Origin: a virus
Strand: one strand, 5' to 3'
DNA: 64,000 nucleotides
IMG/VR virus record: IMGVR_UViG_3300017963_000192
Coordinates: 62,001 to 126,000 of that record
Within the stretch, counting starts at the first letter, position 1. Each line of letters begins with the position of its first letter. Under the pieces are notes generated by a model, which was given only the letters and a program-made list of their open reading frames with translations, ran no database searches and had not been told where the DNA came from. The position numbers and the translations under genes are program-made. Below, piece by piece: positions 1,627-63,448 of this stretch.

Positions 1627-3707
1627 TATAAAAAATCCTCGTGTTTAATTTTTAATATTAGTTTATCCAATACAAAATTGTAATCATTATAGTAACATTT
1701 CACACACTGATTTCCATTAAAATATTTTTGTTTTTGATATATCTTTTTTAAATCTTGAATAGGCCCCATAGCCATACTATCACCACAACTTAAATCTGGT
1801 TCTTTTCTAGCATATTGCACACCGCAATTATGAAGAAGTATCCCAAATGAACTATAGAACATGTTTGTATTTTCAACTTGAATATCAAATAAGTCATCTG
1901 ACATTATTTTTTCAATTTTTTTAACTGGAACAAACATTAATCCATCTTTTTTATAAAACCCCAAAGCTCGTTTAGGACTTCGCCTAGTAACATCTAAATA
2001 TTTTATTTCAGGAAACATTGTTAATTTTAAAAGATTATAATTACCTGAAATTTTTACTCTATAGAGATCATGACAATTAACCTCTCTTTCTTCTATAACC
2101 ATCTTATCTCTTTTATGTATACTAATTGTAGCTATTATTCCTAATGTTGATAACAATAATACAAGATCACTTGCTAATTGCTTACTAATAGTAGAAAAAA
2201 TAATTCGGTATCCTTTATAACTTTTATTTGGTTTACCTAGATGCCCATCTCCGTCAAAATAACTTTTAAGAAACAATTCTTTTTGATAATTATTACAGTT
2301 AAAGATACTTGGTGGAATTCGTTTATTTAATGCATCACCACCACATTCTTTAAATATATTAAATAAGAGTTTAGAATATATATTTATCTGAAAACCTGTC
2401 CTTCTCTTATACACTTTATATTTATAATTGAATTTATTTAAAACTTTTTCTAATTTTTTTAATTTTTCTGTTGCATGTAATCCATATTTTAATTCTATAC
2501 TATATCCTTTATCACCTCTATCTGAAGAACATCCATCAGCAACATATTGTCCTTTTAACCAAACTAAATCGTCATCTATAAATGAGTCAAATCTACTAGT
2601 TTCAAAATCATTAAATTGATATTTAACTGGGATCAAATCATCAATTTCTATAGTATTTGCAAGTTTTTCTTCTAATGTATAATCATTTAACTCTTTAAAT
2701 CTTTCACTTTTAATATCTAAAGAACTACTTGTTACCATAATATGATCTTTAGATACTTCTATAAATCTATTATTCTTTAAAGTGATTCTTAAAATTTCTT
2801 CTGGAGGTTTTTTCCATACTTTTTTTATTTTACCATGTCCTAATGCCATGTCTCCTTCCTTAACTTCATTTACCCGTTTTGGAACAAGTATACCATTATC
2901 ATCAATTATAACAGTTTCATTAGAATTTAAACAACATGGATAAATATAACCATCTGCATTAATAACTGGTTTGAGTAAACTTATAAGACACTTCTCAATC
3001 CCAGGGTGAAATTCTTTTCTGCCTTGATAGATAACAATTGAATCATCTATATCGTGTGATTGAAGATACTCTTTGATAGTAGCCATTTCACTAACATCAT
3101 TTAGATTTAAAAGATTAGAAACTAATCTGACATATGCAGCACCTTTTTTATTAGAAAATTTTATGATTTTCTGTAACATTTCAAAATTTATATTGTCTGT
3201 CACAACATAACTAAAGCCCCAATCAACTGCACCACAATATTTTAAAATTTCTGCAATTTTAATTTCATAATCCCAAGTCCACTCCCGCAAATCTGAATGA
3301 CTAATTCTTAACCAGGTTATATTTTTTCGTAAATTACCAATTTTTATATTACTTAAAGCGATGCCATTAGTTGTAAGACCTACCTTCATTCCCAGATCAT
3401 TAATAATTTCAATTATTTCATTTATATTAGGATGAAGTAATGGTTCTCCACCTCCAGATATTGTTACAGCTTTACATCCCAATTCTGCGGCATCAGATAA
3501 GACTGAGATTGTATCTTGTAAAGACAATTCATCTTTTTGATTTCTATTAGCACAACTACAAAACTCACATTTGAGATTACATACATTTGTAGGATATAAT
3601 TGAATATGGTATGGTATTATTTTTCCATGTATATCAATCACTTTTTTATTTTGAATGAGTTTGGTTGGAAATGTGTCGGCTGCTGTATAAGATTCTATAA
3701 TTCCCAC
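1626..3707 (-). CDS. Radical SAM/SPASM-type protein interrupted by an intein
   Basis: The 693-residue precursor starts at GTG, preceded by AAAGGAG seven bases upstream. The radical SAM cluster motif C-x3-C-x2-C is at C43, C47 and C50, followed by the GGGEP segment at ~85-89. Near residue 258 the frame enters an intein (259-627), after which the extein resumes with CGVQYARKEP and a Cys-rich tail (CGDS and CVKC), giving a spliced enzyme of 324 residues. The Cys pattern after the junction resembles a SPASM auxiliary-cluster domain, so correct splicing would be needed to rebuild it. Neighbours are glycosyltransferases. The substrate is unknown; sugar or peptide modification is possible. Confidence 0.85.
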   Translation of the reverse strand: MGIIESYTAADTFPTKLIQNKKVIDIHGKIIPYHIQLYPTNVCNLKCEFCSCANRNQKDELSLQDTISVLSDAAELGCKAVTISGGGEPLLHPNINEIIEIINDLGMKVGLTTNGIALSNIKIGNLRKNITWLRISHSDLREWTWDYEIKIAEILKYCGAVDWGFSYVVTDNINFEMLQKIIKFSNKKGAAYVRLVSNLLNLNDVSEMATIKEYLQSHDIDDSIVIYQGRKEFHPGIEKCLISLLKPVINADGYIYPCCLNSNETVIIDDNGILVPKRVNEVKEGDMALGHGKIKKVWKKPPEEILRITLKNNRFIEVSKDHIMVTSSSLDIKSERFKELNDYTLEEKLANTIEIDDLIPVKYQFNDFETSRFDSFIDDDLVWLKGQYVADGCSSDRGDKGYSIELKYGLHATEKLKKLEKVLNKFNYKYKVYKRRTGFQINIYSKLLFNIFKECGGDALNKRIPPSIFNCNNYQKELFLKSYFDGDGHLGKPNKSYKGYRIIFSTISKQLASDLVLLLSTLGIIATISIHKRDKMVIEEREVNCHDLYRVKISGNYNLLKLTMFPEIKYLDVTRRSPKRALGFYKKDGLMFVPVKKIEKIMSDDLFDIQVENTNMFYSSFGILLHNCGVQYARKEPDLSCGDSMAMGPIQDLKKIYQKQKYFNGNQCVKCYYNDYNFVLDKLILKIKHEDFL
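1827..2933 (-). mobile_element. Intein with LAGLIDADG homing endonuclease (in radical SAM gene)
   Basis: The 369-codon in-frame insertion begins at a Cys within YPCC|LNSNETV and ends HN before a Cys (LLHN|CGV), the standard intein junction chemistry. Block A-like and block B-like segments (IDDNGILVPKRVNEVKEGD and VSKDHIM) are present. Two LAGLIDADG-type helices are visible, LKGQYVADG and LKSYFDGDGHLG, so the homing endonuclease may be active. The insertion point lies in the C-terminal Cys-rich metal-cluster region of the host enzyme. The first intein residue could be C258 or C259; C259 keeps CC in the spliced product. Confidence 0.9.
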
Positions 3708-17352: not shown

Positions 17353-19800
17353 CTATGCGTGTTGACGAACAAGATGTGTTCTTAATTTATTTGCTATTGT
17401 ATCTGGATCTGAATCTGGTATTTGTAAGTAAATATTTGTAATGTTTCCTGCTTTTGTAACTTCTGTTTTTTCTCCTAATCCCCCTCTAGCACCTTCTTTT
17501 GATGTTACATCAACATTTCTTTTACTGTATACATACATTTCATTGTTTAATAGCTCACCGTCTTCTATTATTGCTGGAACACCACCTTTTATTGTACCAC
17601 CTCCGTGTTTTGTATCCACCCCCCACCCAGTTCTTGTCTTGAAACCTTTTTTACCTTGTTTTAATATATAATCACCAACACCAACCTTTTTAGTGAGGTC
17701 TTCCATGCCTTTTTTTATACTTAATGCACTTTGTTTGAGAGTATTTCCAACATCTATATTTTGTTTAAAACTCTTTAAATCCATATCGGCACCTTTTTTT
17801 GCTTTGTCTATGTAATCAGACCATTTTTCCATAACATTCTTTTCGCTAGAGAACCATTTTGATGGGCTAAATACTCTCATCATTGTTCCAGCCAATTTAA
17901 CAATACCTCCCGCAACCCATAATAGAGTAGGTTTTATAAATTTCCATATAACACCTATAATTGTAAAAACACTCATCATTATTCTCATTATAAGTCTTTG
18001 GATTTGCTCACCCCTTTCTTGAATAGATAGAGTTCTTTCCTGAATTTGTTTCGTTGTCATTAATTTTTTTTGAACTCTTGAGTCTTTTGCTAAAGATTTA
18101 AAATTATCTGTTTGCATCATTGTTATTCTTAATTGTTCGTCATCTACTCCAAACAATTCTTTTAACATTTTATTTTGAGTTATGAAAGCCTCTCCTTCAC
18201 TCATACCTTTAGTAGCATCTCTAACATAGCTCATCATAGATTCCATTTTAGTTGCATATACATCTGTTGTTTTTGTTCCTTCAAGTCCTTTTAAAACACC
18301 TTCTTTTGTAAAACCCATTCCCGTTGCTGTTTTATATCCAAATCGTGATGCAACAATTCCTCTACCAACACTCATTTCCTTTCCTGTTTCTTTTCTATAT
18401 TTCTCTCCATACATTCTTATTCCCATAAAGGCGTGCATACTATAATCCCATTTCTTTCCAAGAGTAGACATACCAGTAACTAATTTAGATAAACTGTCCC
18501 TTAAACTGATGCCCCAACCAGCTAAGTCTTTTTGTTTTTTAGCTAACATGTTTGTTACATTAGCAACTGAACGCATATCAACATTCATCATCCTAGCCTG
18601 TACTGATGCATCTGCAATTGCTTTTGAAAATTGTGTGGTTGATATTCCGGTAATCTTAGCCATTTTATCAGCCATTCCAAACATTGTTGACATATTTCTC
18701 ATTGCTTTTGAAGCATCTCCTGCGGATATCAGCATTTGCTCAAAATATTGTCGTGTTTGTGATGATGATAACTGCATTGTTTGACCTATTCTATACATTT
18801 GTGTTGCCATTGCAGTATTAGCTCTAGTACCTGTTTCTATAAATGCTGATGACCATTCTTCAGCTCTTTTTCTAATTCCCCCAGTAGCTTTCATCATACC
18901 ACTAAATAAATCTGCTCCACCACCTGCTCCAGTTCGTGCTTTAGCAAGAATATCAACTTTTTGTTTAGCAATCCAGTCTCCCAATGACATCATATACATC
19001 TTTACTGCCATTGTACCAAATGTTCCTATAAGATCTCCTAACATACCACCAAAAAGTGGTATTTTTTTTGCTAATCCAGAAAAGAAATCTATTGTTCCTT
19101 GATTAAGTCCTTGCAATCCGCCATCCCAAGCTTTGTGCATTAAATCCATAAATGTTGTAATTACTTTTGTTACCATTTTTGGTAAGAAAGTAATTGTACG
19201 AATAATTGCATCAATTACTAATTTCATTACATTTGCTACTGTGGATACTATTCCACCAACTCCTGGAATATTTTCTCCTAATTTTCCTATAACACTAAGA
19301 GGCCCCTTTCCAGGTGGTCCCCCTGGACCACCTGGACCACCTCCTACAAATTTAGAAATCCTTTCGAGTCTTGCTTTTTTCTTTTCTATTTCGTAAGTCT
19401 TTTCCATAATTCTTAATCTATCTTCTTCTTTTTGTAACTGTTCTTTATTTATTCCATCTATAGTTTTTAATTCTGCTTTTTGCTTTTTTAATTTTGCTAT
19501 GGCTTTGTCCATAGTTATGCCTTCTTCTTTCATTATTCTAGAAATTTGAGATTCAACTTTTAACTGTGCTAGATAAAAGCTTTTAGCCTCACGAGCCATA
19601 TCTTTATCATAGCCCATAATTTTGGCAGCTTTTTCTTTATCCGCTCCAGAAATATCTCCTAAATCTGCCATGTCTCTATGAAGACCATACGTCTCTGCTC
19701 TAGTACCTCTTGCAGTTTCAGAGGCGGCCTCCTTTCGAGATTCCTTTATACCTTCTAAATATTTCAATATGGAATCGGTTAATTTATCTAAATCTGCCAT
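17353..19800 (-). CDS. Tail tape measure protein
   Basis: An 815-residue protein starting with a long charged coiled coil (residues ~1-150), then a Gly/Pro hinge (GGGPGGPGGPPGKG near 152-165), hydrophobic helical segments (~180-270, and ~600-640 IMRIMMSVFTIIGVIWKFIKPTLLWV) and a long helical middle rich in Met and Ala. This is the classic composition and position of a tape measure, immediately downstream of the frameshifted chaperone gene. It sets tail length and may help membrane passage during DNA entry. It ends in TAG. Confidence 0.85.
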   Translation of the reverse strand: MADLDKLTDSILKYLEGIKESRKEAASETARGTRAETYGLHRDMADLGDISGADKEKAAKIMGYDKDMAREAKSFYLAQLKVESQISRIMKEEGITMDKAIAKLKKQKAELKTIDGINKEQLQKEEDRLRIMEKTYEIEKKKARLERISKFVGGGPGGPGGPPGKGPLSVIGKLGENIPGVGGIVSTVANVMKLVIDAIIRTITFLPKMVTKVITTFMDLMHKAWDGGLQGLNQGTIDFFSGLAKKIPLFGGMLGDLIGTFGTMAVKMYMMSLGDWIAKQKVDILAKARTGAGGGADLFSGMMKATGGIRKRAEEWSSAFIETGTRANTAMATQMYRIGQTMQLSSSQTRQYFEQMLISAGDASKAMRNMSTMFGMADKMAKITGISTTQFSKAIADASVQARMMNVDMRSVANVTNMLAKKQKDLAGWGISLRDSLSKLVTGMSTLGKKWDYSMHAFMGIRMYGEKYRKETGKEMSVGRGIVASRFGYKTATGMGFTKEGVLKGLEGTKTTDVYATKMESMMSYVRDATKGMSEGEAFITQNKMLKELFGVDDEQLRITMMQTDNFKSLAKDSRVQKKLMTTKQIQERTLSIQERGEQIQRLIMRIMMSVFTIIGVIWKFIKPTLLWVAGGIVKLAGTMMRVFSPSKWFSSEKNVMEKWSDYIDKAKKGADMDLKSFKQNIDVGNTLKQSALSIKKGMEDLTKKVGVGDYILKQGKKGFKTRTGWGVDTKHGGGTIKGGVPAIIEDGELLNNEMYVYSKRNVDVTSKEGARGGLGEKTEVTKAGNITNIYLQIPDSDPDTIANKLRTHLVRQHA

Positions 19801-19809
19801 ATAAATCTC

Positions 19810-20993
19810 CTATAAGCTTATTGCTGCTCCTGAAAAATTCTCTAACATTTCTTTATATTTTTCTTTAGGAATAAGAACATTTCCATTAGCATCAATAAGT
19901 CCAAGGTTATCATCATAACGAGTATCTGCAACTGCATGACTAACCCTAGTCTTACCATCTTGATAGCTAACGTCAAGAGGTTCTCCTGCTTTCTTCTTTT
20001 TCTCCATCTGCTCTTTCATACTTCGATACTGCTTATATATTTCGGGCTTAATTAATTGACCTATTAATTCAGCTTGTGGTTCTAAAGCTTCTTTCCAATT
20101 GACGTTATGTTGCATTCTTATCATATAAAACGACAAAAACCAATAATGGATGGGTAATCTTTTAACCTCTTCGGAGTATGGATTCCATTTATTGTAAAGA
20201 CAGACGTAGTATCTTACGAAATTCTCGTCACCCACCAGGTTGATACAATCTTCCCAGTTTTCTGATGGGTGACTTAGGAGTTTTTTAACTCTTCAATCGC
20301 AGCTCCTCGTCTTTCTTCCATTTCGAGATATTTCTCGTATAGAATATCTATAACATTTGGAGGTAACGCTTCTAAGTATGCTCGCAAAGCTCTTCTTACA
20401 GCCACGTGATATTCCATTCTATTCATATTAAAATCTGAAAGTTTGATGTCTTCAAACCATTCATAAACAGAAACATCATCTATAGCCTCTAAAGAATAAA
20501 TAATAGTACCAAACATTACAGACATCACCCTACCGGATTGAGTGGATAGGGTGTCTTTAACTTCATCTAGAGATAAAAGAGTATCACCCTGATCTAAAGC
20601 TCTTAAAGTCCACTTATGCCCAAAAATATCAAAATCCTCTGTATGTTCTCCTTTTGAGATAAGTTGTTTTAAAACTTCTTTAGGATTTTTTGGAGCACCT
20701 TGAAATTTTGTTTTCTGTGCTTCTGCAACATCCCTTCTAATTCTATCTTCAACAGTATCAATCTTATTCATAGTCTGATCTACTTTCTGATTGATTTGTG
20801 CCCTCCTTTCAGCATTAGGAAGTTGTTCTGTTGTGTGTAAATCAGGAATAGGACTTCCCATATTTTGTTGAGGTATTGTTGTAGCAATAGGTTGTTGTGG
20901 AGGTTGGTTATTCATTTGATCAGAAGTTAATAAATCTCCACTGTGTATACCTTGCCCTTGTACGGGATTTCCCGTATTCTCTTTTGGTTTCAT
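19810..20993 (-). CDS. Tail assembly chaperone, -1 frameshift fusion product
   Basis: The 239-codon upstream frame (20274..20993) and a downstream frame (to 19810) are in -1 register and overlap without a stop between slip site and fusion. The last codons of the first frame read TTA AAA AAC TCC TAA, so A AAA AAC at 20286-20280 is a canonical slippery heptamer. Slippage continues as KLLSHPSENWEDC into the second frame, giving about 394 residues. The second part has no good independent start (first candidate GTG at 20235). This mirrors lambda gpG/gpGT and sits, as expected, between tube and tape measure genes. Confidence 0.85.
20274..20993 (-). CDS. Tail assembly chaperone, short (gpG-like) product
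   Basis: The 239-residue unshifted product has a Gln/Pro/Asn-rich N-terminal 90 residues and a helical C-terminal domain (FDIFGHKWTLRALDQGD...MEYHVAVRRALRAYLEALPPNVIDILYEKYLEMEERR). FGHKWTLRAL followed by a helical bundle is typical of phage tail chaperones related to T4-like or SPP1 gp17-like proteins. It is translated at a higher level than the fusion and both bind the tape measure during assembly in known systems. Confidence 0.8.
   Translation of the reverse strand: MKPKENTGNPVQGQGIHSGDLLTSDQMNNQPPQQPIATTIPQQNMGSPIPDLHTTEQLPNAERRAQINQKVDQTMNKIDTVEDRIRRDVAEAQKTKFQGAPKNPKEVLKQLISKGEHTEDFDIFGHKWTLRALDQGDTLLSLDEVKDTLSTQSGRVMSVMFGTIIYSLEAIDDVSVYEWFEDIKLSDFNMNRMEYHVAVRRALRAYLEALPPNVIDILYEKYLEMEERRGAAIEELKNS
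20280..20286 (-). other. Programmed -1 frameshift site (A AAA AAC)
   Basis: Minus-strand heptamer A AAA AAC read in the zero frame as AAA AAC, two codons before the TAA of the short chaperone. Shifting back one base enters the open downstream frame. X XXY YYZ heptamers of this type are known strong slip sites in bacteria. The pairing downstream was not folded. Confidence 0.82.
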
Positions 20994-25011: not shown

Positions 25012-26070
25012 CTATATTAATAAATTAAGTATTCTGATAATATCGTAATTATCTCTTAAAAACGCACTCTCAAAATCCCTATGTAAAATTTTAAGTTCTG
25101 GACCGTGAGTGTGTTCTGTTAAGTTTTTTACTTCGTATTTTTGACCTTCAAATTCCCCTTGTAAAAAAACAATAATATCACCTTCGCTAATGTTTGCCTC
25201 TGGTAATGTCCACCATCTCATAGGACGGGTTGTCTTCCATCCATGTTCTGATTGATTTATTTCTATTTTAACTTGATCTCTTGATGCTAAAAATGCTGGT
25301 ATATCAATAGTATGTCTTGGATCAAGTTCTGTTATTTTTACATGATATCTATATCTAAATCTTATAGAATTTAATTGAGGACTTGGACTTGCTGCATATC
25401 TTTTTTGAAATGTAGCTCTAAATTTTATTTGAGTAGTACCTTCTGGAAGACTGAAACCAGTAGCTTTTCTATTACCTAATTCGGTATCGGTATAATCTTC
25501 CATTGTTAACTCTGTCCAATTTCCCCCATCATCTGTAGAATAATAATATTTTATTCTGTTTGTGTCCGCATCTGTCTTATCTTTAGCTAAAAAGAAATCA
25601 ACTTCCTTAAAAGAATCTAAAGTGAAGTTTTCAGTATCCAAATATTCTTCGGTCGAACTCGCAGAACTCATCGAAAATCGATCAGGTTCCCCACTTTGAT
25701 CTTGACCCACTGATATACTATTACTAGAAAAAGAAATATCGCTAGGAGTAGATACAACGATATGATGATAACCATACTTAGTATACCCTTGAAGGTATCC
25801 TGTACCCATGCAAAGAAAGTGATCCCTGTTTGGGCTGCTTTTAATTTCTTTAGTTTCTGCATCTTCTGTTTTACTCCAACAATAACATTTTGTTAAATCA
25901 TCTGGTGCAGTACCATAAAGAGTTATTGCAGAGTTTCTATAGTAAGTACAAGGAGTTCCAGCCGCTCTCATCTTTGCCCTATTTCTGTTTAGGGTTCTTT
26001 CATATAAATGGTATTTATCTATAATGAGTCTAGGATCAACTCTAAATGGTGTAGTCCACCTCATTAACAA
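25012..26070 (-). CDS. Conserved-looking neck/structural protein
   Basis: The 352-residue protein has a short Cys cluster (DDLTKCYCWSK, then DHFLCMGTGYLQGYTKYGYH) and two central beta domains (YYYSTDDGGNWTELTMEDY, QIKFRATFQKRYAASPSPQLNSIRFRYRYHV) of the type seen in phage structural adaptors, ending EHTHGPELKILHRDFESAF. It is probably a virion component of the neck or connector set upstream of the sheath. The exact role is unknown. It ends in TAG. Confidence 0.5.
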   Translation of the reverse strand: MLMRWTTPFRVDPRLIIDKYHLYERTLNRNRAKMRAAGTPCTYYRNSAITLYGTAPDDLTKCYCWSKTEDAETKEIKSSPNRDHFLCMGTGYLQGYTKYGYHHIVVSTPSDISFSSNSISVGQDQSGEPDRFSMSSASSTEEYLDTENFTLDSFKEVDFFLAKDKTDADTNRIKYYYSTDDGGNWTELTMEDYTDTELGNRKATGFSLPEGTTQIKFRATFQKRYAASPSPQLNSIRFRYRYHVKITELDPRHTIDIPAFLASRDQVKIEINQSEHGWKTTRPMRWWTLPEANISEGDIIVFLQGEFEGQKYEVKNLTEHTHGPELKILHRDFESAFLRDNYDIIRILNLLI

Positions 26071-26076
26071 TCTCCT

Positions 26077-26976
26077 CTATTCTCTCGATCTTACTGGTCT
26101 TTTATATTTACCTAATAATACAGAATCTTTTATTCCCTCATAAAGATAATCTATATATCCTTGGGTATAGATATCAATCTCATCTTCAGATAAACTTTCT
26201 TTCATGTATGCATAATCACTTATTTTTTGTCTTAAAACTTCATAGCATTTTTCTTTTACTGCCTCGTCATTAACATCGTATCCTTGCTCATTAATTCCTA
26301 CAAGAAATTCGTACATAGTCTCCCTTGCAATAGTACTCAATTCCTCGTTTTCTGCAATTGTTTCTTTTGAAAAAACTTCTTCTTCTGTTTCTTTTGTAAA
26401 AACTCCTTCTTCTGTTTCTTCTTCATATTCTCCAGAAGAAGAGTAGTATTCGTTTAACATTGGTCTTACTATACTTGTATATAATAATCCAAGTTCACTC
26501 ACATAATCAAAAATCGCAACATTTGATTCGTAATCCACATTAGCTAACTCTTTATCAAGTTCATCCAGATAATAATAAAAAGTATCCATTGCTTCTTCTA
26601 ATTCTGGAAACATTTCACTTTCTTCACTAGGAGGATTGCTGTTAACAACATCTACTAAATGTAAATAACTCTCTAATATGTTTTGAATTGTTTCTGTTTT
26701 AACTAAACCTCTTTCAGGTTGAGAGTATTGTTGCACGTCTCCCTGCTCACTTAAAAGCTCTTGAAACCCTGGTTCTACTTGTATGTTTTCTTGATATGTT
26801 TCATAATCCCCTAAGTTTATTAAACCATTTACTTTGTTTCCAAGCTCATTAACCAATCTTTCTATAATATCACTAGGAAAACCTTCCCAAGAAGATGACA
26901 TTGGGATTTGTGCTGTTTTAATTAATTCCTTTAAATTATTTATTCCAATATAATCCATATTACCAGTTATCCTCAT
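26077..26976 (-). CDS. Acidic hypothetical protein
   Basis: A 299-residue, strongly acidic protein with a repetitive Glu segment (EEETEEGVFTKETEEEVFSKETIAENEEL) and helical flanks. No domain was recognised. The reading frame overlaps the previous gene by 17 bases; an in-frame ATG at 26958 would almost remove the overlap and give a 293-residue product, so the start is uncertain. It lies in the neck block. Confidence 0.5.
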   Translation of the reverse strand: MRITGNMDYIGINNLKELIKTAQIPMSSSWEGFPSDIIERLVNELGNKVNGLINLGDYETYQENIQVEPGFQELLSEQGDVQQYSQPERGLVKTETIQNILESYLHLVDVVNSNPPSEESEMFPELEEAMDTFYYYLDELDKELANVDYESNVAIFDYVSELGLLYTSIVRPMLNEYYSSSGEYEEETEEGVFTKETEEEVFSKETIAENEELSTIARETMYEFLVGINEQGYDVNDEAVKEKCYEVLRQKISDYAYMKESLSEDEIDIYTQGYIDYLYEGIKDSVLLGKYKRPVRSRE

Positions 26977-31124: not shown

Positions 31125-31436
31125 CTACTTCCACAAAAGTTTTAATAAGGCAAATGACACGATTATTACTGTTTGTACTACAATAAAAATCGTTACTATT
31201 TGCGTTTTAAACTTTTGAAGTTCTTTATTAGATTTTTCCAATTCTTCAACTCGATGTCTTAACCCGTTTTTGCCGTCAACACCCATAAGGACAACCTCAA
31301 TTGTTTTCATACGATCAAGCATTTCTCCAACTAGTTTGGAATTTTCTTTTTGGTTGTCGTTAAGTTCCTGGAGTTCTTTTAACACTAAATCTCTGTAAGC
31401 TTTTTCGACATCTGATTTACTATATTCGTTTGACAT
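31125..31436 (-). CDS. Membrane-anchored coiled-coil protein (XhlA/holin-like)
   Basis: 103 residues: a charged coiled coil (residues ~12-75) and a single C-terminal transmembrane segment (IVTIFIVVQTVIIVSFALLKLLWK). This topology resembles haemolysin XhlA-type proteins found in phage lysis modules (MKTIEVVLMGVDGKNGLRHRVEELEKSN is XhlA-like). In this position it might be a lysis protein or a membrane tether for the signalling proteins on either side. It ends in TAG. Confidence 0.55.
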   Translation of the reverse strand: MSNEYSKSDVEKAYRDLVLKELQELNDNQKENSKLVGEMLDRMKTIEVVLMGVDGKNGLRHRVEELEKSNKELQKFKTQIVTIFIVVQTVIIVSFALLKLLWK

Positions 31437-31439
31437 TTT

Positions 31440-32279
31440 CTATTTCCTTTTCTTCCTTCTGTCTGTTCTTTTTGAATAATTTTTTGCACATGAAACATCT
31501 TTAATAAGAATTATAGCTATAAATTTTTGCTTATCGATTGTACATCCCCTTGTTCTTATCTCTAATAATTTGCAAATATTATCCTTGTTGCAGAACTCGA
31601 CATCAAAAGATCTTCTTTCTCCTTTATCTATTGCGGATATAATGCTTTTACAGCCTTCTTCCGTTACACCAATATCATTAAGATGTACTCCAACCATATC
31701 ATTGATATTCTCACATTCTGCTATATTACAAAAACTGGGATTAACATCTTCTATAATCAAATCTTGAGAACAAATTGCAATGCCTTCAGTAGTTAATTCA
31801 ACCAAACGTTTATACCGATTTTGACTAATTCTTAATTGTTCAACTGTCTCTTTTTTAGAAGTAACATTACGTTGCATACCTCTAAATCCTATTATTCTGT
31901 TGTCATTAGAGTTTTTTAAAACATCAACAGATGTTTCGACCCATATTTTAATTCCATCTTTTCTTATAACTTGCCAATCAGTAATTTCATTTTTTTCTTC
32001 AGTTTCATAAACTTTACTAAATTCTTTATAAATTTTTTCTGCTGTTTTTTCGTCTGTATATTCTTTATAATTCATTCCAAAAAGTTCGTGTCTTGAATAT
32101 CCATACATTTCACAAAGAGCACGATTAAAAAAAGTTAAATTACCTTCTAAATCAACTTCATAGTATCCCTCATCAATACTCTCTAAAATGTTTTCATATT
32201 TATCTTTTGACTCTTCCAACCTTCTTTCTAATTTATTAAGTTGTGTTGTTATTTGTTCTATTTCATTTAAGTATGTCAT
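31440..32279 (-). CDS. PAS-domain sensor protein without output domain
   Basis: The 279-residue protein starts with a coiled coil (residues 1-30), then two PAS domains (~26-140 with GYYEVDLEGNLTFFNRALCEMYGYS and ~150-265 with GIAICSQDLIIEDVNPSFCNIAE). The KDGIKIWVETSVDVL and GFRGMQRNVTSKKE segments are typical PAS/PAC. There is no kinase, cyclase or HD region, so it must signal by protein contact. It is within the STAS-REC-HD-GYP cassette. It ends in TAG next to a basic tail. Confidence 0.82.
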   Translation of the reverse strand: MTYLNEIEQITTQLNKLERRLEESKDKYENILESIDEGYYEVDLEGNLTFFNRALCEMYGYSRHELFGMNYKEYTDEKTAEKIYKEFSKVYETEEKNEITDWQVIRKDGIKIWVETSVDVLKNSNDNRIIGFRGMQRNVTSKKETVEQLRISQNRYKRLVELTTEGIAICSQDLIIEDVNPSFCNIAECENINDMVGVHLNDIGVTEEGCKSIISAIDKGERRSFDVEFCNKDNICKLLEIRTRGCTIDKQKFIAIILIKDVSCAKNYSKRTDRRKKRK

Positions 32280-46423: not shown

Positions 46424-46888
46424 TTATAAAGATTCTATTTCATAAGAGAAAGCCAGCCAACTGTTTTTAAGAAGTTCCTGATTACGGCTTTCTTCCCAAT
46501 ATCTAACAATGAGTGCTGGTTTACTAAATAAATAATCTCGTACAGTAAAGAAATGATCTAAATTTGCTACTAATCTTTCCATAGCTACAATGTCCTCTTC
46601 CTCTAATTCACGAGCATCTATTCCGACATAAGGTTGACCCATTTCATCCTTTGGTTTATCTAAATGATCTTCATTTAAGCCAGAACAAGAGACTAATGTA
46701 GGATAACCTTTTTCATTTAATTTATATATAATATCTAATATACCATTATCTATTTCAGCATCTAAATTTTTATTCACAACATTTTGTAGACTTTCTGGAA
46801 ATTCTTCTACATCAACATCTATAACATCTTTTCCAGTATCTGCTATCTTAATAAGATTTTTAATGTTTTTTATGTTTCTAAAATTCAT
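46424..46888 (-). CDS. Hypothetical protein
   Basis: 154 residues, with NIKNLIKIADTGKDVIDVDVEEFPESLQNVVNKNLDAEIDNGILDIIYKLNEKGYPTLVSCSGLNEDH and an acidic middle. GYPTLVSCSGLNEDHL looks like a small ligand or nucleotide-binding loop, but no family is assigned. Lies between two fibre-like genes. Confidence 0.5.
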   Translation of the reverse strand: MNFRNIKNIKNLIKIADTGKDVIDVDVEEFPESLQNVVNKNLDAEIDNGILDIIYKLNEKGYPTLVSCSGLNEDHLDKPKDEMGQPYVGIDARELEEEDIVAMERLVANLDHFFTVRDYLFSKPALIVRYWEESRNQELLKNSWLAFSYEIESL

Positions 46889-46897
46889 AAAAATCTC

Positions 46898-48556
46898 CTA
46901 ATTAAAAGTAATACTAAAACTTGTTATTCTCTCACTTCCAGTAAATCCAACTCTAATGTATACTGTATCAGAACAGTTTACAATATTGTTTGTCCCAAAA
47001 GTGCAATCAATATACCCAGAACCAGATCCCACTCTACACCCACCAGAGACAGGGTTTCCGTTATTCCAATCACTTGCGTTATAATCATCTAAACAATCTA
47101 TCCAAACAGTTCCTCCACCGCTAGTTCCATCCCAAGCTTTTGCAAGTTTCATCTCAAGTGAGTTATAACTTCCAACTATATTTATTCTAAAATTAGCACT
47201 TGCTGTACCATCGTGTTCAAACTGTCTCCATAAGAATACTTCAGTATTCATATAAGAACCAGAGTAATCTGGTTGACTTGTTAGGTTTGGGGAATATATC
47301 GTAAAATCTGTAGTATTTCTCTCACATCCACCACATCTAAAAACGGCATCCATTATCCCCACATCAACAGTAGAATCCCAGGATTTCGCACCGCCCGAAT
47401 CAAAGTTTGCTGTAGAAGGACATCTCCAATCTTCATAATCAAATCTTTCTATTAATCTGGTACTAGAATTTGTTCTTGTATTTACAAGTATGTTTGCATT
47501 GCTAGATGGAACCCATGAACCATTTGTCCAATCTATAGGTCTTGCATTTATATTTGCAGTTGTTGTTACAGAACAAAAATTGGATGCATTAATAGCCCAA
47601 TTCGTCTTATTATAAGAATCGTTTGCATCATCATATGCATAAGTCCATCCAGTTAAATCCGAGCCAGATAAATCTAATGTTGGTAATCCATATTCACTAC
47701 CTTCAATATCTACTTGATTAAGAGGATATGTATGATAATTTAAATTATCAATATCAGTAATATCAACCGTAAATTGACTTCCAGTTGTATAATACTCAAC
47801 GCCAGACAAAAATCTTGTTACAACACTTCCAGCAGTTTCTACTATAGTAACACCGGACAATGTTGCAATAGTTGGATTAGGATCATAAAAAGTAGCTGTT
47901 TGTGTTTTGGTATAATCAATGTCATTATGATGAATCATTTCTACCGTAATTCTTCCACCACTTGATATTATTAAACTTATAGATATTGTTATAGTAACAA
48001 TACCTTTATACTTGATATAATCCGTATCCCAGGAAGTTACTTGTATTCTAATGTTATCTGAAGTATCATCATAATTTCCTGTTATTGCCGGAGTTGTTTT
48101 AGTAGCTACTTTTGTAATCTCATCAGCATCATAAACATTCACCTCTAAGGTGGAAGTTAAACTATCAAAAAGACATTGATTTGTTGTTGTATAACTCCAA
48201 GTCGTTGATTGCGTTGCAGGATGAAGTGTTCCAGCCACCCAATCTCCTTTACTAAAAGGAGTTCCTTCAGATGCTGGATTTGATATATACCTATTTGTAG
48301 TTGATATACTACCCACAGAGCAATTGTTATTACCATCACTTGTATTAAAATGAGAAACGAAGTCTACTTCTGGAGCAAATATTGTAACCTCATTAGGACC
48401 TGTTTTCATTGCATTATGACCTGTCCCAACAATGTTGACGGTTGTAATGCCCGTACCTATTACAACTCCTTCATCTTCAAAAGTAATACCTGTACTAGTA
48501 GGGGTTTGTTGTCCTCTTTTTCGTTCAAGAAGAATTTTAGGTTCTCTAAATCCCAT
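46898..48556 (-). CDS. Large adhesin/fibre-like protein
   Basis: 552 residues, Thr/Asn/Gly-rich with beta repeats. The N-terminus ends GVVIGTGITTVNIVGTGHNAMKTGPNEVTIFAPEVDFV, and the C-terminus has KAWDGTSGGGTVWIDCLDDYNASDWNNGNPVSGGCRVGSGSGYIDCTFGTNN, a Cys-containing domain of the type I associate with receptor-binding tail proteins of large phages. It may recognise the host surface. It ends in TAG and is followed by a 123-residue tail-like gene. Confidence 0.55.
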   Translation of the reverse strand: MGFREPKILLERKRGQQTPTSTGITFEDEGVVIGTGITTVNIVGTGHNAMKTGPNEVTIFAPEVDFVSHFNTSDGNNNCSVGSISTTNRYISNPASEGTPFSKGDWVAGTLHPATQSTTWSYTTTNQCLFDSLTSTLEVNVYDADEITKVATKTTPAITGNYDDTSDNIRIQVTSWDTDYIKYKGIVTITISISLIISSGGRITVEMIHHNDIDYTKTQTATFYDPNPTIATLSGVTIVETAGSVVTRFLSGVEYYTTGSQFTVDITDIDNLNYHTYPLNQVDIEGSEYGLPTLDLSGSDLTGWTYAYDDANDSYNKTNWAINASNFCSVTTTANINARPIDWTNGSWVPSSNANILVNTRTNSSTRLIERFDYEDWRCPSTANFDSGGAKSWDSTVDVGIMDAVFRCGGCERNTTDFTIYSPNLTSQPDYSGSYMNTEVFLWRQFEHDGTASANFRINIVGSYNSLEMKLAKAWDGTSGGGTVWIDCLDDYNASDWNNGNPVSGGCRVGSGSGYIDCTFGTNNIVNCSDTVYIRVGFTGSERITSFSITFN

Positions 48557-49360: not shown

Positions 49361-49849
49361 CTAGAAATAATTGCTTCTACCATAATCATCTTTAAGTCTA
49401 ACTATATCGTTTTCATCATTCTCATCTCCATCTTCTACTCCTAATGCAACGTCCAATATCATTCCATATTTTTTATTCCCATTATAAATTGCTCTGTGTA
49501 CAACATGTTTTTTAAATCCAAAAATGTCTCCTTTTTTTGCTTTTATTGTAATTAAATTATTATTTAAAAATTCCTCAAGTAATTTAAATTTAGGTTCTAC
49601 ATCTGGCATATTAAGTATTTTTTTAGAAACAGGCTTTTTGCTATACTTTATTATAAAATCATTATCTAATATTAAATATAACTGATATCTTTTAAAATGA
49701 AATTGGAGAGATAATGATTGCTTCGGTTTTACATATAATACTTTTGTTGTACTTTTAACATTATCAGCATATAATCCATAGTGCCCCCACGGTCTTTCTA
49801 CTTCTAATGTTGAAAATGGTTTAATGAATTTATTTCTCTTTAATTTCAT
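49361..49849 (-). CDS. Type II phosphomannose isomerase-like cupin
   Basis: 162 residues. VERPWGHYGLYADN, KVLYVKPKQSLSLQFHFKR, KKGDIFGFKKHVVHRAI and EDIVRLKDDYGR match the C-terminal domain of ManC/RfbM-type phosphomannose isomerase-GDP-mannose pyrophosphorylases: cupin metal ligands (H/Q/H in SLQFH and H-R), and the ending DIVRxxDxYGR is diagnostic. It lacks the pyrophosphorylase domain. It could supply mannose-6-phosphate-derived sugars for the phage glycan genes. Ends in TAG. Confidence 0.82.
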   Translation of the reverse strand: MKLKRNKFIKPFSTLEVERPWGHYGLYADNVKSTTKVLYVKPKQSLSLQFHFKRYQLYLILDNDFIIKYSKKPVSKKILNMPDVEPKFKLLEEFLNNNLITIKAKKGDIFGFKKHVVHRAIYNGNKKYGMILDVALGVEDGDENDENDIVRLKDDYGRSNYF

Positions 49850-49864
49850 CTTTTTCTCACCTCC

Positions 49865-50221
49865 CTAGCACATGTTATTCCATCTTCTGACTGCATCAAT
49901 TTCTTCTTCTGTCTTTGGACCACTTGCCTTACAAGTTTCGCATTTAACTTGTTTATATTTAGTATCATGATATACATATATAAGAACATGTGTTGATTTA
50001 CAATATGGACAAGGTTTTAAATTCAAGTCTATATCCCAAAACATAATATCTTCAGTATAGGGGATAAAACAGGATGTACTACCATGTCTCCCTACATATC
50101 TGTATATCCATCCACTAGGAACTCTTATAAACGTTCCTTCATAATTATTCTTTTTTTGGATGTTTACTGACTCTCCAATTTTCATTTTAAATAATCTTTT
50201 TGCTAATTTATTTTCTTTCAT
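49865..50221 (-). CDS. Lar-like zinc-binding protein
   Basis: 118 residues. The C-terminal half, LKPCPYCKSTHVLIYVYHDTKYKQVKCETCKASGPKTEEEIDAVRRWNNM, matches the Lar/Lar_restr_allev family (LKPCPFCGS..V.C..C.A.GP...EAI..WN) with two CxxC zinc ligand pairs. In Rac prophage, Lar reduces type I restriction. The N-terminal part may bind DNA or other protein. Antirestriction is a reasonable assignment. Overlaps the next gene by four bases; ends in TAG. Confidence 0.7.
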   Translation of the reverse strand: MKENKLAKRLFKMKIGESVNIQKKNNYEGTFIRVPSGWIYRYVGRHGSTSCFIPYTEDIMFWDIDLNLKPCPYCKSTHVLIYVYHDTKYKQVKCETCKASGPKTEEEIDAVRRWNNMC

Positions 50222-60592: not shown

Positions 60593-61304
60593 TATTCTTT
60601 GACTTATTTATTTCTAATAAATCAGGATTGCTTTCAAGAAAATGTACAACTTCTTCTATAGAAAAAGGCTTTTTTTTATACAATTCACCATATATCATTT
60701 TAGCAAGTACATAATCCTCCTCATAATCAACTGTCAATCGAGGATATCCTAAAGGGCTTTGTAATCCAGCATTATAAAATTCAACATTGAATTTATCTCT
60801 ATTATTTTTAATGTAAGTTGTTACATGTTCTCTATCAGATTTTTTCGTTACTTCATTGTATGTTCTTTGAATGGCTTCACTTTTGAATATTTCTATGCCT
60901 GTTCCTATAGGAAGTCCAACCATAGCAAGTAAATCAAATTTTTTTTCAATTTCTCTTTTAATGGCAAAAGAACCGTAATTAACGTCAATAAAAGGGTTAT
61001 CCCCCGTTATTCTTGCTATGTATTTACTAGGATATTCCTCTGAAATTATGTAAAATCTCTCTAAAACATCCTCTATAGCACCTACAAAAACATTACATCT
61101 CATTTCAAATGCTAAATCTATTATAGGTTTATTAGAACCACAGTAACTTGTAGCTACAAACACCTCATCTACGTTCTCAAAAGCTTGAACTCTTTCAATT
61201 ACGTGTGCTAACAAAGGTTTTCCAGCCAAATCAAGCATAGCTTTATCTGGTAGCCTATTAGATTTCATTCTTGCCTGTATAACAGCTATTACGTTTTTTC
61301 TCAT
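60588..61304 (-). CDS. Sugar nucleotidyltransferase (SpsF/CMP-KDO synthetase-like)
   Basis: 238 residues. IAVIQARMKSNRLPDKAMLDLAGKPLLAHVIERV is the nucleotide-binding start of SpsF/KdsB-type cytidylyltransferases (R-M-x-S-x-R-L-P-x-K). Later ITGDNPFID carries the metal-binding Asp. It joins sugar to CTP or another nucleotide and would provide activated sugar for the phage glycosyltransferases at the window's left end. Expressed from promoter motif A. Confidence 0.82.
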   Translation of the reverse strand: MRKNVIAVIQARMKSNRLPDKAMLDLAGKPLLAHVIERVQAFENVDEVFVATSYCGSNKPIIDLAFEMRCNVFVGAIEDVLERFYIISEEYPSKYIARITGDNPFIDVNYGSFAIKREIEKKFDLLAMVGLPIGTGIEIFKSEAIQRTYNEVTKKSDREHVTTYIKNNRDKFNVEFYNAGLQSPLGYPRLTVDYEEDYVLAKMIYGELYKKKPFSIEEVVHFLESNPDLLEINKSKNT

Positions 61305-61339
61305 ACGGTAGGAATATTCTTCATCTCATTTTTAATATT

Positions 61340-61373
61340 ATAAAATGATAATGAATTTAGCAAAAATTTTAAG
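61340..61373 (-). promoter_or_regulatory. Bipartite promoter-like motif, copy A
   Basis: CTTAAAAT (61373-61366), 14 bases, TTATCATTTTAT on the minus strand, between the tRNA and the nucleotidyltransferase gene. Confidence 0.7.
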
Positions 61374-61400
61374 GATATTTTTTTATTGGTTTATAAAATT

Positions 61401-61472
61401 CGTCCCTGACAGGAATCGAACCTGCTATACATAGTTTTAGAGACTATTGCCTAGCCATTTGGCTTCAGGGAC
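61401..61472 (-). tRNA. tRNA with anticodon CUA (amber suppressor, Gln-like)
   Basis: The minus-strand 72-base RNA folds as a full tRNA: acceptor GTCCCTG/CAGGGAC, D-arm GCC/GGC with AAATGGCTA loop, anticodon stem ATAGT/ACTAT with loop CT-CTA-AA, variable GTATA, T-arm GCAGG-TTCGATT-CCTGT, discriminator G73. Anticodon CUA reads UAG. G73 and the GCC-A..GGC D-arm match tRNA-Gln, so glutamine charging is plausible. CCA is not encoded. A8 differs from the usual U8. Confidence 0.88.
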
Positions 61473-61480
61473 GAGTAACT

Positions 61481-61915
61481 TTACGCTACTTTTTCTTCAA
61501 TCCAATGTCTTTTAACACTAACAATTGTCATATTATCAACTTCAAACTCCAATTCGTACTTTTCACAGAGTTTTATGACTCTTGCATTGACCATATATAC
61601 TGTTGAGGTATCATTTACTCTGTTAGGTTCGATTTGGTCAAGGGTTTTCCCCCTACACATACTTAAAAATATGTGATTTGACCGAAATTCAAGGTAAGGG
61701 TAGTCCAAATTGCCTTTTTCACGTTCAATTTGCATCTCTTTTTGGATTTCTTGATAAGAAGAGTCTTTATCTTTCATAAATTCGGGCAAATTGCTCTTAT
61801 TTAGACATTTTGCAAGCCTACTTTCAAATTTTCGGCTTAAATGTTTCGAAATTCTTAATTTTTTTGCTAAATTCTTGTTATGTTCTCGTAATTCGATGTA
61901 TTCTTCTCTAATCAT
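61481..61915 (-). CDS. Hypothetical protein of the suppressor-tRNA operon
   Basis: 144 residues, basic N-terminus of likely coiled coil (YIELREHNKNLAKKLRISKHLSRKFESRLAKCLNKSNLPEFM) and a mixed C-terminal domain (NDTSTVYMVNARVIKLCEKYELEFEVDNMTIVSVKRHWIEE). No family recognised. It is preceded by AAGGAGATTTAC and by an unusual leader, and is followed nine bases later by the amber-suppressor tRNA. It could bind RNA or DNA; unproven. Confidence 0.6.
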   Translation of the reverse strand: MIREEYIELREHNKNLAKKLRISKHLSRKFESRLAKCLNKSNLPEFMKDKDSSYQEIQKEMQIEREKGNLDYPYLEFRSNHIFLSMCRGKTLDQIEPNRVNDTSTVYMVNARVIKLCEKYELEFEVDNMTIVSVKRHWIEEKVA

Positions 61916-61937
61916 TGTAAATCTCCTTATAATTAAT

Positions 61938-62033
61938 TTATAAATTGTGGTTGGTAGGTAAATTAATCATAGGAGGTGAGCGAGAACCTCTATTGGCGGG
62001 AAATTTTCTTAATATTTTGATAATCTAGGTCAT
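61938..62033 (-). CDS. Leader ORF with in-frame TAG at codon 3
   Basis: ATG ending 62033 is preceded by AAGGAGG six bases upstream. The frame reads M T TAG, then 28 sense codons (IIKILRKFPANRGSRSPPMINLPTNHNL) to TAA at 61938. It gives a dipeptide if TAG stops, or a 31-residue peptide if the neighbouring CUA tRNA reads it. No homologue is known. Codons 18-21 span a TCACCTCCT identical to the 16S anti-Shine-Dalgarno. Real expression is uncertain. Confidence 0.4.
61971..61979 (-). promoter_or_regulatory. Anti-Shine-Dalgarno-like segment in leader
   Basis: Minus RNA reads TCACCTCCT, nine bases matching the 3' end of bacterial 16S rRNA. It can pair with the AAGGAGG of the leader ORF or the AAGGAGA of the 61481..61915 gene, and is part of a GAGGT/ACCTC hairpin. 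It may switch between open and closed ribosome sites. Confidence 0.45.
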
Positions 62034-62060
62034 TTTTTGCCTCCTTAACTTATAAGGTTC

Positions 62061-62089
62061 AATTTATTATAAAAGTTACAGTTTGTCAA
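62061..62089 (-). promoter_or_regulatory. Sigma70-like promoter of suppressor-tRNA operon
   Basis: Minus strand TTGACA (62089-62084) is a perfect -35; with a 17-base spacer the -10 is TAAATT (62066-62061). A TATAAT also occurs at 62071-62066 with only 12 bases between, so the exact -10 is unsure. It follows a terminator, and a ~140-base leader follows. Confidence 0.6.
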
Positions 62090-62090
62090 T

Positions 62091-62125
62091 AAAAAAACCC
62101 TTCTAAAAATAAGGAGGGTTTTTTT
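62091..62125. terminator. Rho-independent terminator ending the RNA array
   Basis: Minus RNA CCCTCC-TTATTTTTA-GAAGGG followed by seven T residues; the mirrored A/T runs allow either direction. It closes the transcript from the 62705..63448 gene and the tRNA-like array. Confidence 0.75.
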
Positions 62126-62223
62126 ATTGGTTTTCTGTTCAATTCTGCTCAATTCTTATCTCTTCTGTTCAGTTCTCGTCATATCTTTTCAGCTCTTGCC
62201 ACCTCACTTCTTTTAACTAATTT

Positions 62224-62270
62224 GACCAGCTAAGTAATGAACTTAGAAAACTTCTTTAAAAGTTCTGGTC
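62224..62270 (-). ncRNA. 47-base tRNA-like element, copy 1
   Basis: Folds as closing stem GACCAG/CTGGTC, hairpin AACTT-TTAAAG-AAGTT, two bases TT, and hairpin CTAAG-TTCATTA-CTTAG. Relative to copies 2 and 3 every stem has compensatory base pairs. Followed by AAATTAGTT. No D-arm. Confidence 0.6.
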
Positions 62271-62284
62271 TTTTCTACTCTTAA

Positions 62285-62369
62285 CTTCTCAGATCTAAAC
62301 TATTCAAATCTCGTCTACTCTTAACTTGCCTGATCTAGTCTGTTCCTATCTTATAACTAATTTGGGCAG
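62285..62369. repeat. 85-base direct repeat, left copy
   Basis: CTTCTCAGATCTAAACTATT... to GGGCAG; same 85-base unit recurs at 62582..62666 with only a few mismatches. It joins spacer to the start of an RNA element, showing that element and spacer duplicated together. Confidence 0.65.
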
Positions 62370-62410
62370 TTAGGTAACGAACCTAATTAATTTCTTTAAA
62401 AATTCTGCCC
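62364..62410 (-). ncRNA. 47-base tRNA-like element, copy 2
   Basis: Closing stem GGGCAG/CTGCCC, hairpin AATTT-TTAAAG-AAATT, linker AA, and TTAGG-TTCGTTA-CCTAA. Identical layout to copy 1 with covarying pairs; conserved TTAAAG loop and T-arm-like loop. Followed by AAATTAGTT. Confidence 0.65.
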
Positions 62411-62518
62411 TCCTCTGTTCTGGACAATTCTTTTCTTTCCTATTCTTTACTCATCAAAACTATCCTACTCTACTCATGTCTGCTCTTTTCTTCTCTCCTC
62501 TTTCCATTTAACTAATTA

Positions 62519-62565
62519 GGGCAGCCAAGTAATGAACTTGAACAATTCCTTTAAGAATTCTGCCC
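62519..62565 (-). ncRNA. 47-base tRNA-like element, copy 3
   Basis: Closing stem GGGCAG/CTGCCC, hairpin AATTC-TTAAAG-GAATT, linker GT, and TCAAG-TTCATTA-CTTGG (one G-U pair). Pairs changed in both helices compared with copies 1 and 2 keep the fold. Followed by TAATTAGTT. Confidence 0.65.
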
Positions 62566-62581
62566 TCTTTGCTATTCTTGT

Positions 62582-62666
62582 CTTCTCAGATCTAAACTAT
62601 TCAATTCTCGTCTATTCTTAACTTGCCTGATCTAACCTGATCTTATCTTATAACTAATTTGGGCAG
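62582..62666. repeat. 85-base direct repeat, right copy
   Basis: Right copy of the repeat starting at 62285; it leads into the fourth, larger RNA element. Confidence 0.65.
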
Positions 62667-62721
62667 TGGAGGATTAGAACCTCCACTAACAAACCAAAGT
62701 TATATTAACCAACCTTTGCCC
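62661..62721 (-). ncRNA. 61-base tRNA-like element, copy 4 (larger)
   Basis: Minus RNA has closing stem GGGCA/TGCCC, hairpin AAGGTT-GGTTAATAT-AACTTT, linker, and AGTGGAGG-TTCTAAT-CCTCCACT, with tRNA-like T-arm. Same three-way-junction order as copies 1-3 but longer. Its 5' end overlaps the last 17 bases of the gene ending 62705. Too short and lacks an anticodon stem, so it is not a normal tRNA. Confidence 0.5.
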
Positions 62722-63448
62722 AATTCTTATCTTTGATAACTGGATTAAATGGTTCAATGGTGTCTGATGCAACAATGCCTTTAATTGAATATGTTCCATA
62801 TGTTCCAGAATTTTCCGGTCTCCAGGCACCGTATCCAGATAATGCTCCAGCTTTTACTATTATCTCAGTCATTTGTTCTGGACTAATAACGTTTTCATCA
62901 AAAGCAACTCTTAAATTTAAAGTCCAATCAGAAAACATTGCTCTGTAAAAAGGCACCAAACTCCCTTTCTTACCACCGAGATTTCCAAGTTCAATGCTTT
63001 TATCGTACTTTTTATATTTAATTGGAATTAAACCTCTCCTTGCTGTAGGAACTACAAAAATAGCCGCCTCTAATGCTTTTTTCATTTTTCTTCCTAGGAG
63101 ATTTTGACCAACATTTACAAACGATTTTTTAAATCCTATTGCAGGTACTCCTACTAAACCTTTTTTTTCATCGAGCCAATGAGCCTTTCCTTTACATTCC
63201 TCATCAGGGTCAACTGCTTTGGTTCTTTTAAGGATTTTATTTTTTTCTTTTTCAAAATCTTCTCTTCGCTCTTTTAAAAGATTTTTTGATTTTGCGTTTT
63301 GAAGAAGCTCTGTTTGCCCTTCAATAACAAACTCAATCCACGAAATAAATCGAGATGGCTCTATAATATTTAGATTATCTTTTACAGAGCCTCCCTTTTT
63401 TTCTGCTTTTTTGCCTAATTCTTGTACACTATCCTTTTTCTTTGGCAT
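62705..63448 (-). CDS. Conserved phage-like hypothetical protein
   Basis: 247 residues. N-terminal Lys-rich coil, then SRFISWIEFVIEGQTELLQNAKSKN and DPDEECKGKAHWLDEKKGLVGVPAIGFKKSFVNVGQNLLGRKMKKALEAAIFVV, ending with LSGYGAWRPENSGTYGTYSI. The GxGxWRPExxGTYG ending recalls a widespread phage protein group of unknown function. Its stop overlaps the RNA element at 62661..62721. Confidence 0.5.
   Translation of the reverse strand: MPKKKDSVQELGKKAEKKGGSVKDNLNIIEPSRFISWIEFVIEGQTELLQNAKSKNLLKERREDFEKEKNKILKRTKAVDPDEECKGKAHWLDEKKGLVGVPAIGFKKSFVNVGQNLLGRKMKKALEAAIFVVPTARRGLIPIKYKKYDKSIELGNLGGKKGSLVPFYRAMFSDWTLNLRVAFDENVISPEQMTEIIVKAGALSGYGAWRPENSGTYGTYSIKGIVASDTIEPFNPVIKDKNWAKVG

Follow-up and report, generated by a model that had tools for sequence, protein, structure and literature searches.

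A CUA tRNA gene in a standard-code phage, preceded by a leader with an amber-interrupted mini-ORF that may act as a suppression-gated switch

Suppressor tRNAs turn up repeatedly in phages without signs of recoding. Xanthomonas phage XacN1 carries two CUA tRNAs in each terminal repeat alongside 18 amber stops, and a search by its authors gave no read-through target (PMC5852040). Suppressors without recoding also occur in crAss-like phages, where they have been read as an incipient change of code (PMC7886860). The suppressor tRNAs of code-15 phages have the anticodon CUA and are often predicted to be of Gln isotype, and those of recoded phages often adjoin theta ribozymes (PMC10879173). In engineered circuits, a UAG placed in a leader peptide makes the downstream gene suppression-dependent (PMC6412442). 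In the literature that we covered, which was incomplete, we found no natural example of a suppressor tRNA acting on a UAG leader in the operon that encodes it. Here we describe a CUA tRNA gene in a phage that retains the standard code. The new element is the leader of the predicted tRNA operon, whose anatomy we report (Table 1) and from which we infer a switch.

The window analysed, 64 kb in length, comprises bases 62001-126000 of a 217,703-base (217.7-kb) virus record. ARAGORN finds a single tRNA in it, on the minus strand at 61400-61473 with anticodon cta. The same gene matches the Rfam model RF00005 end to end with 57.7 bits, above the cut-off of 29 and fourth best among the 14 tRNAs of the record. 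Its cloverleaf folds at -26.2 kcal/mol (z = -3.96); the four stems, the T-loop and the anticodon loop are all intact, and the last, CTCTAAA, has the normal seven bases. A sequence-only reading had described a complete minus-strand tRNA with CUA in this loop, and the gene finder, the covariance-model score and the fold all bear this out. None of the 14 tRNA genes in the record encodes CCA; the C-1 of the CUA tRNA could pair with its discriminator base, G73. ARAGORN labels the gene tRNA-Pyl, merely because the anticodon is CTA. Hallmarks of tRNA-Pyl are a 6-bp anticodon stem, a 3-base variable loop and one base between the acceptor and D stems; the 5-bp anticodon stem, 5-base variable loop and two bases between acceptor and D stems seen here rule this identity out.

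The conserved tRNA core is partly atypical. A14, G18 and G19 are present, and A8, U21 and A48 depart from the usual bases. T stands at position 8 in each of the phage's other 13 tRNAs, as it does in the related suppressor tRNAs whose sequences were inspected. A8 and U21 may have changed together so as to compensate within the 8-14-21 triple, or may equally signal a weak tRNA; with A48 added, the three departures make weak or absent activity of the CUA tRNA possible.

We set this tRNA against four textbook tRNAs, tRNAs of viral loci and 43 others whose isotype is known from the anticodon (35 from the distant relative Rctr197k, the remaining 8 belonging to this phage). Counted as identical positions out of 72, the closest sequences were the tRNAs of L041 (52), L038 (51), Cronobacter phage GAP32 (50) and L036 (50), all of which are phage amber suppressors; that of GAP32 is annotated Sup-tRNA. 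Furthermore, a pattern made of the D-arm GCCAA..GG..AGGC, the loop TCTAA and GGTTCRA found 11 viral contigs, each with a CUA tRNA by ARAGORN. Judged by its sequence, the CUA tRNA belongs to the phage suppressor-tRNA kind. Rctr197k, whose tail sheath is 35% identical over 45% of the query, is without a CUA tRNA.

The resemblance to tRNA-Gln that had been noted in the D-arm and G73 holds: the D-arm reads GCCAA-U-GG-CU-AGGC, a tRNA-Gln pattern, and G73 is present. The step from there to charging with glutamine stands only in part. U35, G10, A37 and G73 favour glutaminyl charging, G1-C72, U2-A71 and C3-G70 do not, and the CUCUAAA loop is of the type found in Trp-like and suppressor tRNAs, which leaves the amino acid unsettled. 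Glutamine is the likeliest candidate, its charging being presumed rather than established.

The other 13 tRNA genes are clustered at 17.8-24.3 kb of the record, and the CUA gene lies apart from them, 8 nt behind the TAA of a 144-codon ORF. It thus sits outside a tRNA cluster, in a small unit in which a small ORF precedes it and a promoter-like site is well placed, much as the sequence-only reading had it, although the promoter scan overall is at chance (6 sites found, 7.4 expected). The further suggestion that this placement reflects deliberate timed expression is not supported: five related suppressor tRNAs also lie 1-4 nt behind a small ORF, the promoter scan is at chance, and a position outside the cluster does not imply such timing. 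Across 61300-62800, beside the tRNA, we found no HDV-like or theta ribozyme and no other credible Rfam element, the theta model possibly not being among the Rfam models searched.

Several other features of the record deserve mention. Within the cluster at 17.8-24.3 kb (L015, L016), the 13 tRNA genes, four of them for Leu, alternate with small ORFs, and several have the Shine-Dalgarno of the next ORF directly behind. On the minus strand of the window, at 1626-3707, a radical SAM protein is split by an intein with LAGLIDADG endonuclease domains; a DnaB-like helicase of 844 aa (L023:7261-9795, plus strand) has a middle part that matches terminase families, probably owing to a shared intein. Record positions 145349-145780 (L021) are non-coding and contain several GTGACAGTTCTGTCAC-type palindromes upstream of plus-strand genes, resembling an operator or origin array.

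Just upstream of the tRNA operon lies an apparently non-coding and apparently new structured RNA of about 600 nt (62130-62735, minus strand), which terminates at the terminator-like hairpin of Table 1. AG recurs in it with a period of 5 nt: 41 pairs have spacing 5, against 13.8 in shuffles (sd 3.2, max 28; z about 8), and its AG-period-5 scores are the top three of the record. Three three-way junctions of 47 nt (62519-62565, 62364-62410 and 62224-62270), spaced about 145-155 nt apart, keep 18 of 18 pairs, with both-side changes at 7 pairs among only three copies. A fourth, larger and tRNA-like element at about 62655-62722 scores 19.4 bits on the tRNA model, below the cut-off. Two 86-nt stretches, 62285-62370 and 62582-62667, are 93% identical at a distance of about 297 nt, a recent internal duplication. 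No Rfam family fits the RNA, and a scan of viral contigs for the three-way-junction motif matched no other contig. Its role may be that of a scaffold, or of a sponge, for some ring-shaped RNA-binding protein; TRAP (PF02081) was considered as its binder and rejected, a homologue being absent from the record. Period-5 NAGNN runs occur in other viral contigs, among the matches listed L088, L086, L057, L051, L102 and L110, with L102 and L086 as examples; some of the runs are probably coding or simple repeats, and an AGNNN scan was too unspecific. A wider survey could reveal whether AG-period-5 RNAs recur in phages.

The sequence-only reading had likened the phage to those that reassign TAG. The 271 non-overlapping ORFs of the record end in TAA (180), TAG (52) or TGA (39). 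Coding density over the whole record drops from 0.925 under the standard code to 0.910 when TAG is read as sense; in 20-kb pieces it goes from 0.834 to 0.805. Among ORFs of at least 100 codons, TAG makes up 20% of stops against 22% expected from trinucleotide counts. The corresponding figures in eight viral records with related suppressors are 3-12% against 19-32%, a comparison that does not include suppressor-free phages, so ordinary TAG avoidance may contribute; a few of these eight records do gain coding density with TAG as sense. The frame stays open for more than 60 codons past the stop in 8 of 52 TAG, 26 of 180 TAA and none of 39 TGA cases, and TAG does not stand out from the other stops together (26/219; Fisher p = 0.49). 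Extensions past the phage TAG stops have a median of 9 codons, and those of at most 3 codons make up 19% past TAG compared with 29% and 23% past TAA and TGA. TAG terminates 19 of 80 ORFs in the late region, where the long ORFs are open under code 11. When the fused frames of the read-through fusions were searched, no PHROG family match spanned any TAG junction.

These results show that TAG works as an ordinary stop here and that the standard code is retained. Neither the proposed kinship to TAG-reassigning phages nor the search for TAG-to-sense codons elsewhere in the genome found support. Recoding, whether genome-wide or in late genes, was rejected because density is not gained and TAG stops are common in late ORFs too; programmed read-through joining late neighbours was likewise rejected, since eight TAG ORFs run on, TAA ORFs do so equally often and no family crosses a junction. 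As TAG is a normal stop, the CUA tRNA could act as an efficient general suppressor only at the price of extending some fifty proteins, by a median of nine codons. With the standard code kept, suppression of UAG could be no more than low to moderate in efficiency, or confined to particular times.

Table 1. Features of the leader, the 144-codon ORF and the tRNA gene, in window coordinates
Feature	Position	Strand	Description or basis
Terminator-like hairpin	62085-62131		Both strands have T-runs; separates the upstream RNA from the tRNA operon
Promoter-like site	62061-62089	-	TTGACA-17-TAAATT, 10/12 consensus; directly downstream of the terminator-like hairpin
Leader mini-ORF	62025-62046	-	Shine-Dalgarno AAGGAGG 62046-62040; ATG ACC TAG 62033-62025
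Frame upon UAG suppression	61938-62033	-	Translation: M-T-(UAG)-28 codons, TAA 61940-61938
Hairpin	61923-61975	-	Local fold; 5' arm CTCCTATGATTAATTTA 61975-61959, 3' arm TAAATTAATTATAAGGAG 61940-61923
144-codon ORF	61481-61915	-	Directly upstream of the tRNA; orphan protein, mostly helical model
tRNA gene, anticodon CUA	61401-61472	-	ARAGORN, Rfam RF00005, fold and flanks; no encoded CCA

The 144-codon ORF is preceded by a leader of about 150 nt that contains the mini-ORF, its strong Shine-Dalgarno and an amber as third codon. Continued past the amber, the frame closes at a TAA 9 nt ahead of the Shine-Dalgarno of the 144-codon ORF. The two arms of the leader hairpin are arranged around these elements: the 5' arm lies within the 28-codon frame past the UAG, and only that frame covers it, and the 3' arm includes AAGGAG (61928-61923), the Shine-Dalgarno of the 144-codon ORF. 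The local hairpin has a predicted stability of -13.7 kcal/mol against -2.7 in shuffles (sd 1.6), none of 1000 being as stable, and it is retained in the MFE of the whole leader; the fold of the entire 176-nt leader is less striking (z = -1.94). That Shine-Dalgarno is predicted to be 83% paired, the 16th least accessible among 195 genes. Sequestration of this ribosome site is therefore real in prediction, but not unique.

Of shuffled leaders, 0.56% combine a strong Shine-Dalgarno with an ATG, and none of 5000 has in addition an amber within four codons; the frame remains open over 28 codons in 17% of shuffles. Other intergenic sites of this type in the record open ORFs of 38-117 codons, except for those that overlap a neighbouring start or a tRNA, a single 12-codon ORF with a TAA stop, and the site at window position 62033, which is the sole one in the record to be broken by an amber with a 28-codon continuation.

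The 144-codon protein matches no family in Pfam or PHROG, is without relatives among the viral contigs and bacterial genome contigs searched and, in a single-sequence model with pLDDT 73, gives no PDB match at E <= 0.001. When relatives of the locus were sought by two flanking proteins and a structural protein, the only hit was a contig of 111,658 bases that comes from the same phage, is almost identical and does not reach the locus. A comparable leader was absent from all 12 other phage suppressor-tRNA loci inspected, so that a switch would be a local invention.

The most likely purpose-built target of the CUA tRNA would be the leader of its own predicted operon. Ribosomes would load at the strong leader Shine-Dalgarno and translate ATG ACC. 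Upon RF1 termination at the UAG, the hairpin would stay closed and the ribosome site of the 144-codon ORF hidden. If instead the CUA tRNA read the UAG, 28 further codons would be translated, the 5' arm would be opened and the ribosome would halt 9 nt before the next ribosome site, and the 144-codon ORF would then be translated by coupling. Its translation might then shield the transcript and lead to more tRNA. Because the tRNA follows 8 nt behind the ORF in the same predicted transcript, such a switch would sense its own suppression activity.

A leader gated by suppression is our leading explanation, held tentatively and barely level with that of a working suppressor without a dedicated target. 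According to the latter, which is about as plausible and itself far from assured, the tRNA is a chance gain or a first step to a change of code, and the leader, an attenuator or small-ORF control of the ordinary sort, has a TAG by chance. Precedents exist: the standard-code jumbo phage XacN1 has CUA tRNAs for which a search gave no read-through target (PMC5852040), suppressor tRNAs precede recoding in crAss-like phages (PMC7886860), GAP32 likewise carries one, and the TAG-ended ORFs of the present phage resemble the others. Given an ordinary attenuator, the share of TAG among stops (about 20%) and of open runs among shuffles (17%) would put an amber plus an open frame at near 3% by chance. An untargeted suppressor does not account for the fact that the record's single mini-ORF interrupted by an amber is found in the leader of the operon predicted to contain the tRNA. 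It is possible, if somewhat doubtful, that the locus is a natural amber-gated switch, in which the level of suppression decides the opening of the hairpin over the next ribosome site and the last gene of the operon is the UAG-reading tRNA. The grouping of Shine-Dalgarno, ATG and early amber is essentially missing from shuffles and the hairpin is stable and lies over the next ribosome site, which argues for this switch, but the leader was recognised after the fact, no close relative of the locus and no similar leader at the 12 other suppressor loci came to light, the ribosome site is even less accessible in 14 other genes, and A8, U21 and A48 are off the usual tRNA core.

The same three bases raise the question of whether the tRNA decodes at all. 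It might decode little or nothing, being in decay or repurposed, for example as a processing signal behind the 144-codon ORF or as a decoy for tRNA-targeting nucleases. A8, where the phage's 13 other tRNAs have T8, would fit this, together with U21 and A48, and so would TAG stops that match base composition (20% v 22%) in place of the 3-12% v 19-32% of phages with related suppressors. The intact stems and loops and a score that ranks fourth of 14 speak against it, and A8/U21 may be compensated in the 8-14-21 triple; we regard it as unlikely. Less probable still is a tRNA directed at the host, as suggested for crAss-like phages (PMC7886860), which would extend UAG-ended host proteins, defence proteins included, while phage proteins tolerated short extensions. 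The median extension of only 9 codons past phage TAG stops agrees with such tolerance, but TAG in the phage is not avoided, and a second stop backs it no more often than it does TAA or TGA. Reassignment of TAG to glutamine (code 15), perhaps in late genes only, is largely refuted and can hardly be credited. The CUA anticodon and Gln-like D-arm would suit it, as would open read-through fusions at window positions 17353-20235, 25012-26976, 31125-32279, 46424-48556 and 49361-50221, but coding density is not raised, 19 of 80 late-region ORFs end in TAG, family matches cross the TAG in none of the fused proteins, and in-frame neighbours are as frequent behind TAA (26/180) as behind TAG (8/52).

Compared with known systems, the phage resembles XacN1 and GAP32 in being a jumbo phage with a CUA tRNA that retains TAG as a stop, and its tRNA shares 50 of 72 positions with that of GAP32. 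Unlike the CUA tRNAs of XacN1, which lie in tRNA-rich terminal repeats, and that of GAP32, which lies beside another tRNA, the gene described here is solitary, behind an ORF with an amber-interrupted leader. In code-15 phages, whether crAss-like or not, coding density rises when that code is applied; here it does not. If the proposed switch fails, the locus is one more orphan suppressor tRNA. If it is real, a UAG-gated leader would give a suppressor tRNA a job without genome-wide recoding, which would supply a purpose for suppressor tRNAs in standard-code phages in the form of a self-sensing stop-codon suppressor. As in ermC-type attenuation, the locus combines a leader ORF that has a Shine-Dalgarno of its own, a hairpin covering the ribosome site that follows and a 5' arm in a translatable frame; the signal in ermC-type systems is an antibiotic-stalled ribosome, and here it would be stop-codon suppression. 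With the engineered UAG switches it shares the principle that leader translation past a UAG governs the downstream gene. Those switches act on transcription (PMC6412442), whereas this one would be natural and act on translation, a natural counterpart, if true, to the UAG leader switches of synthetic biology.
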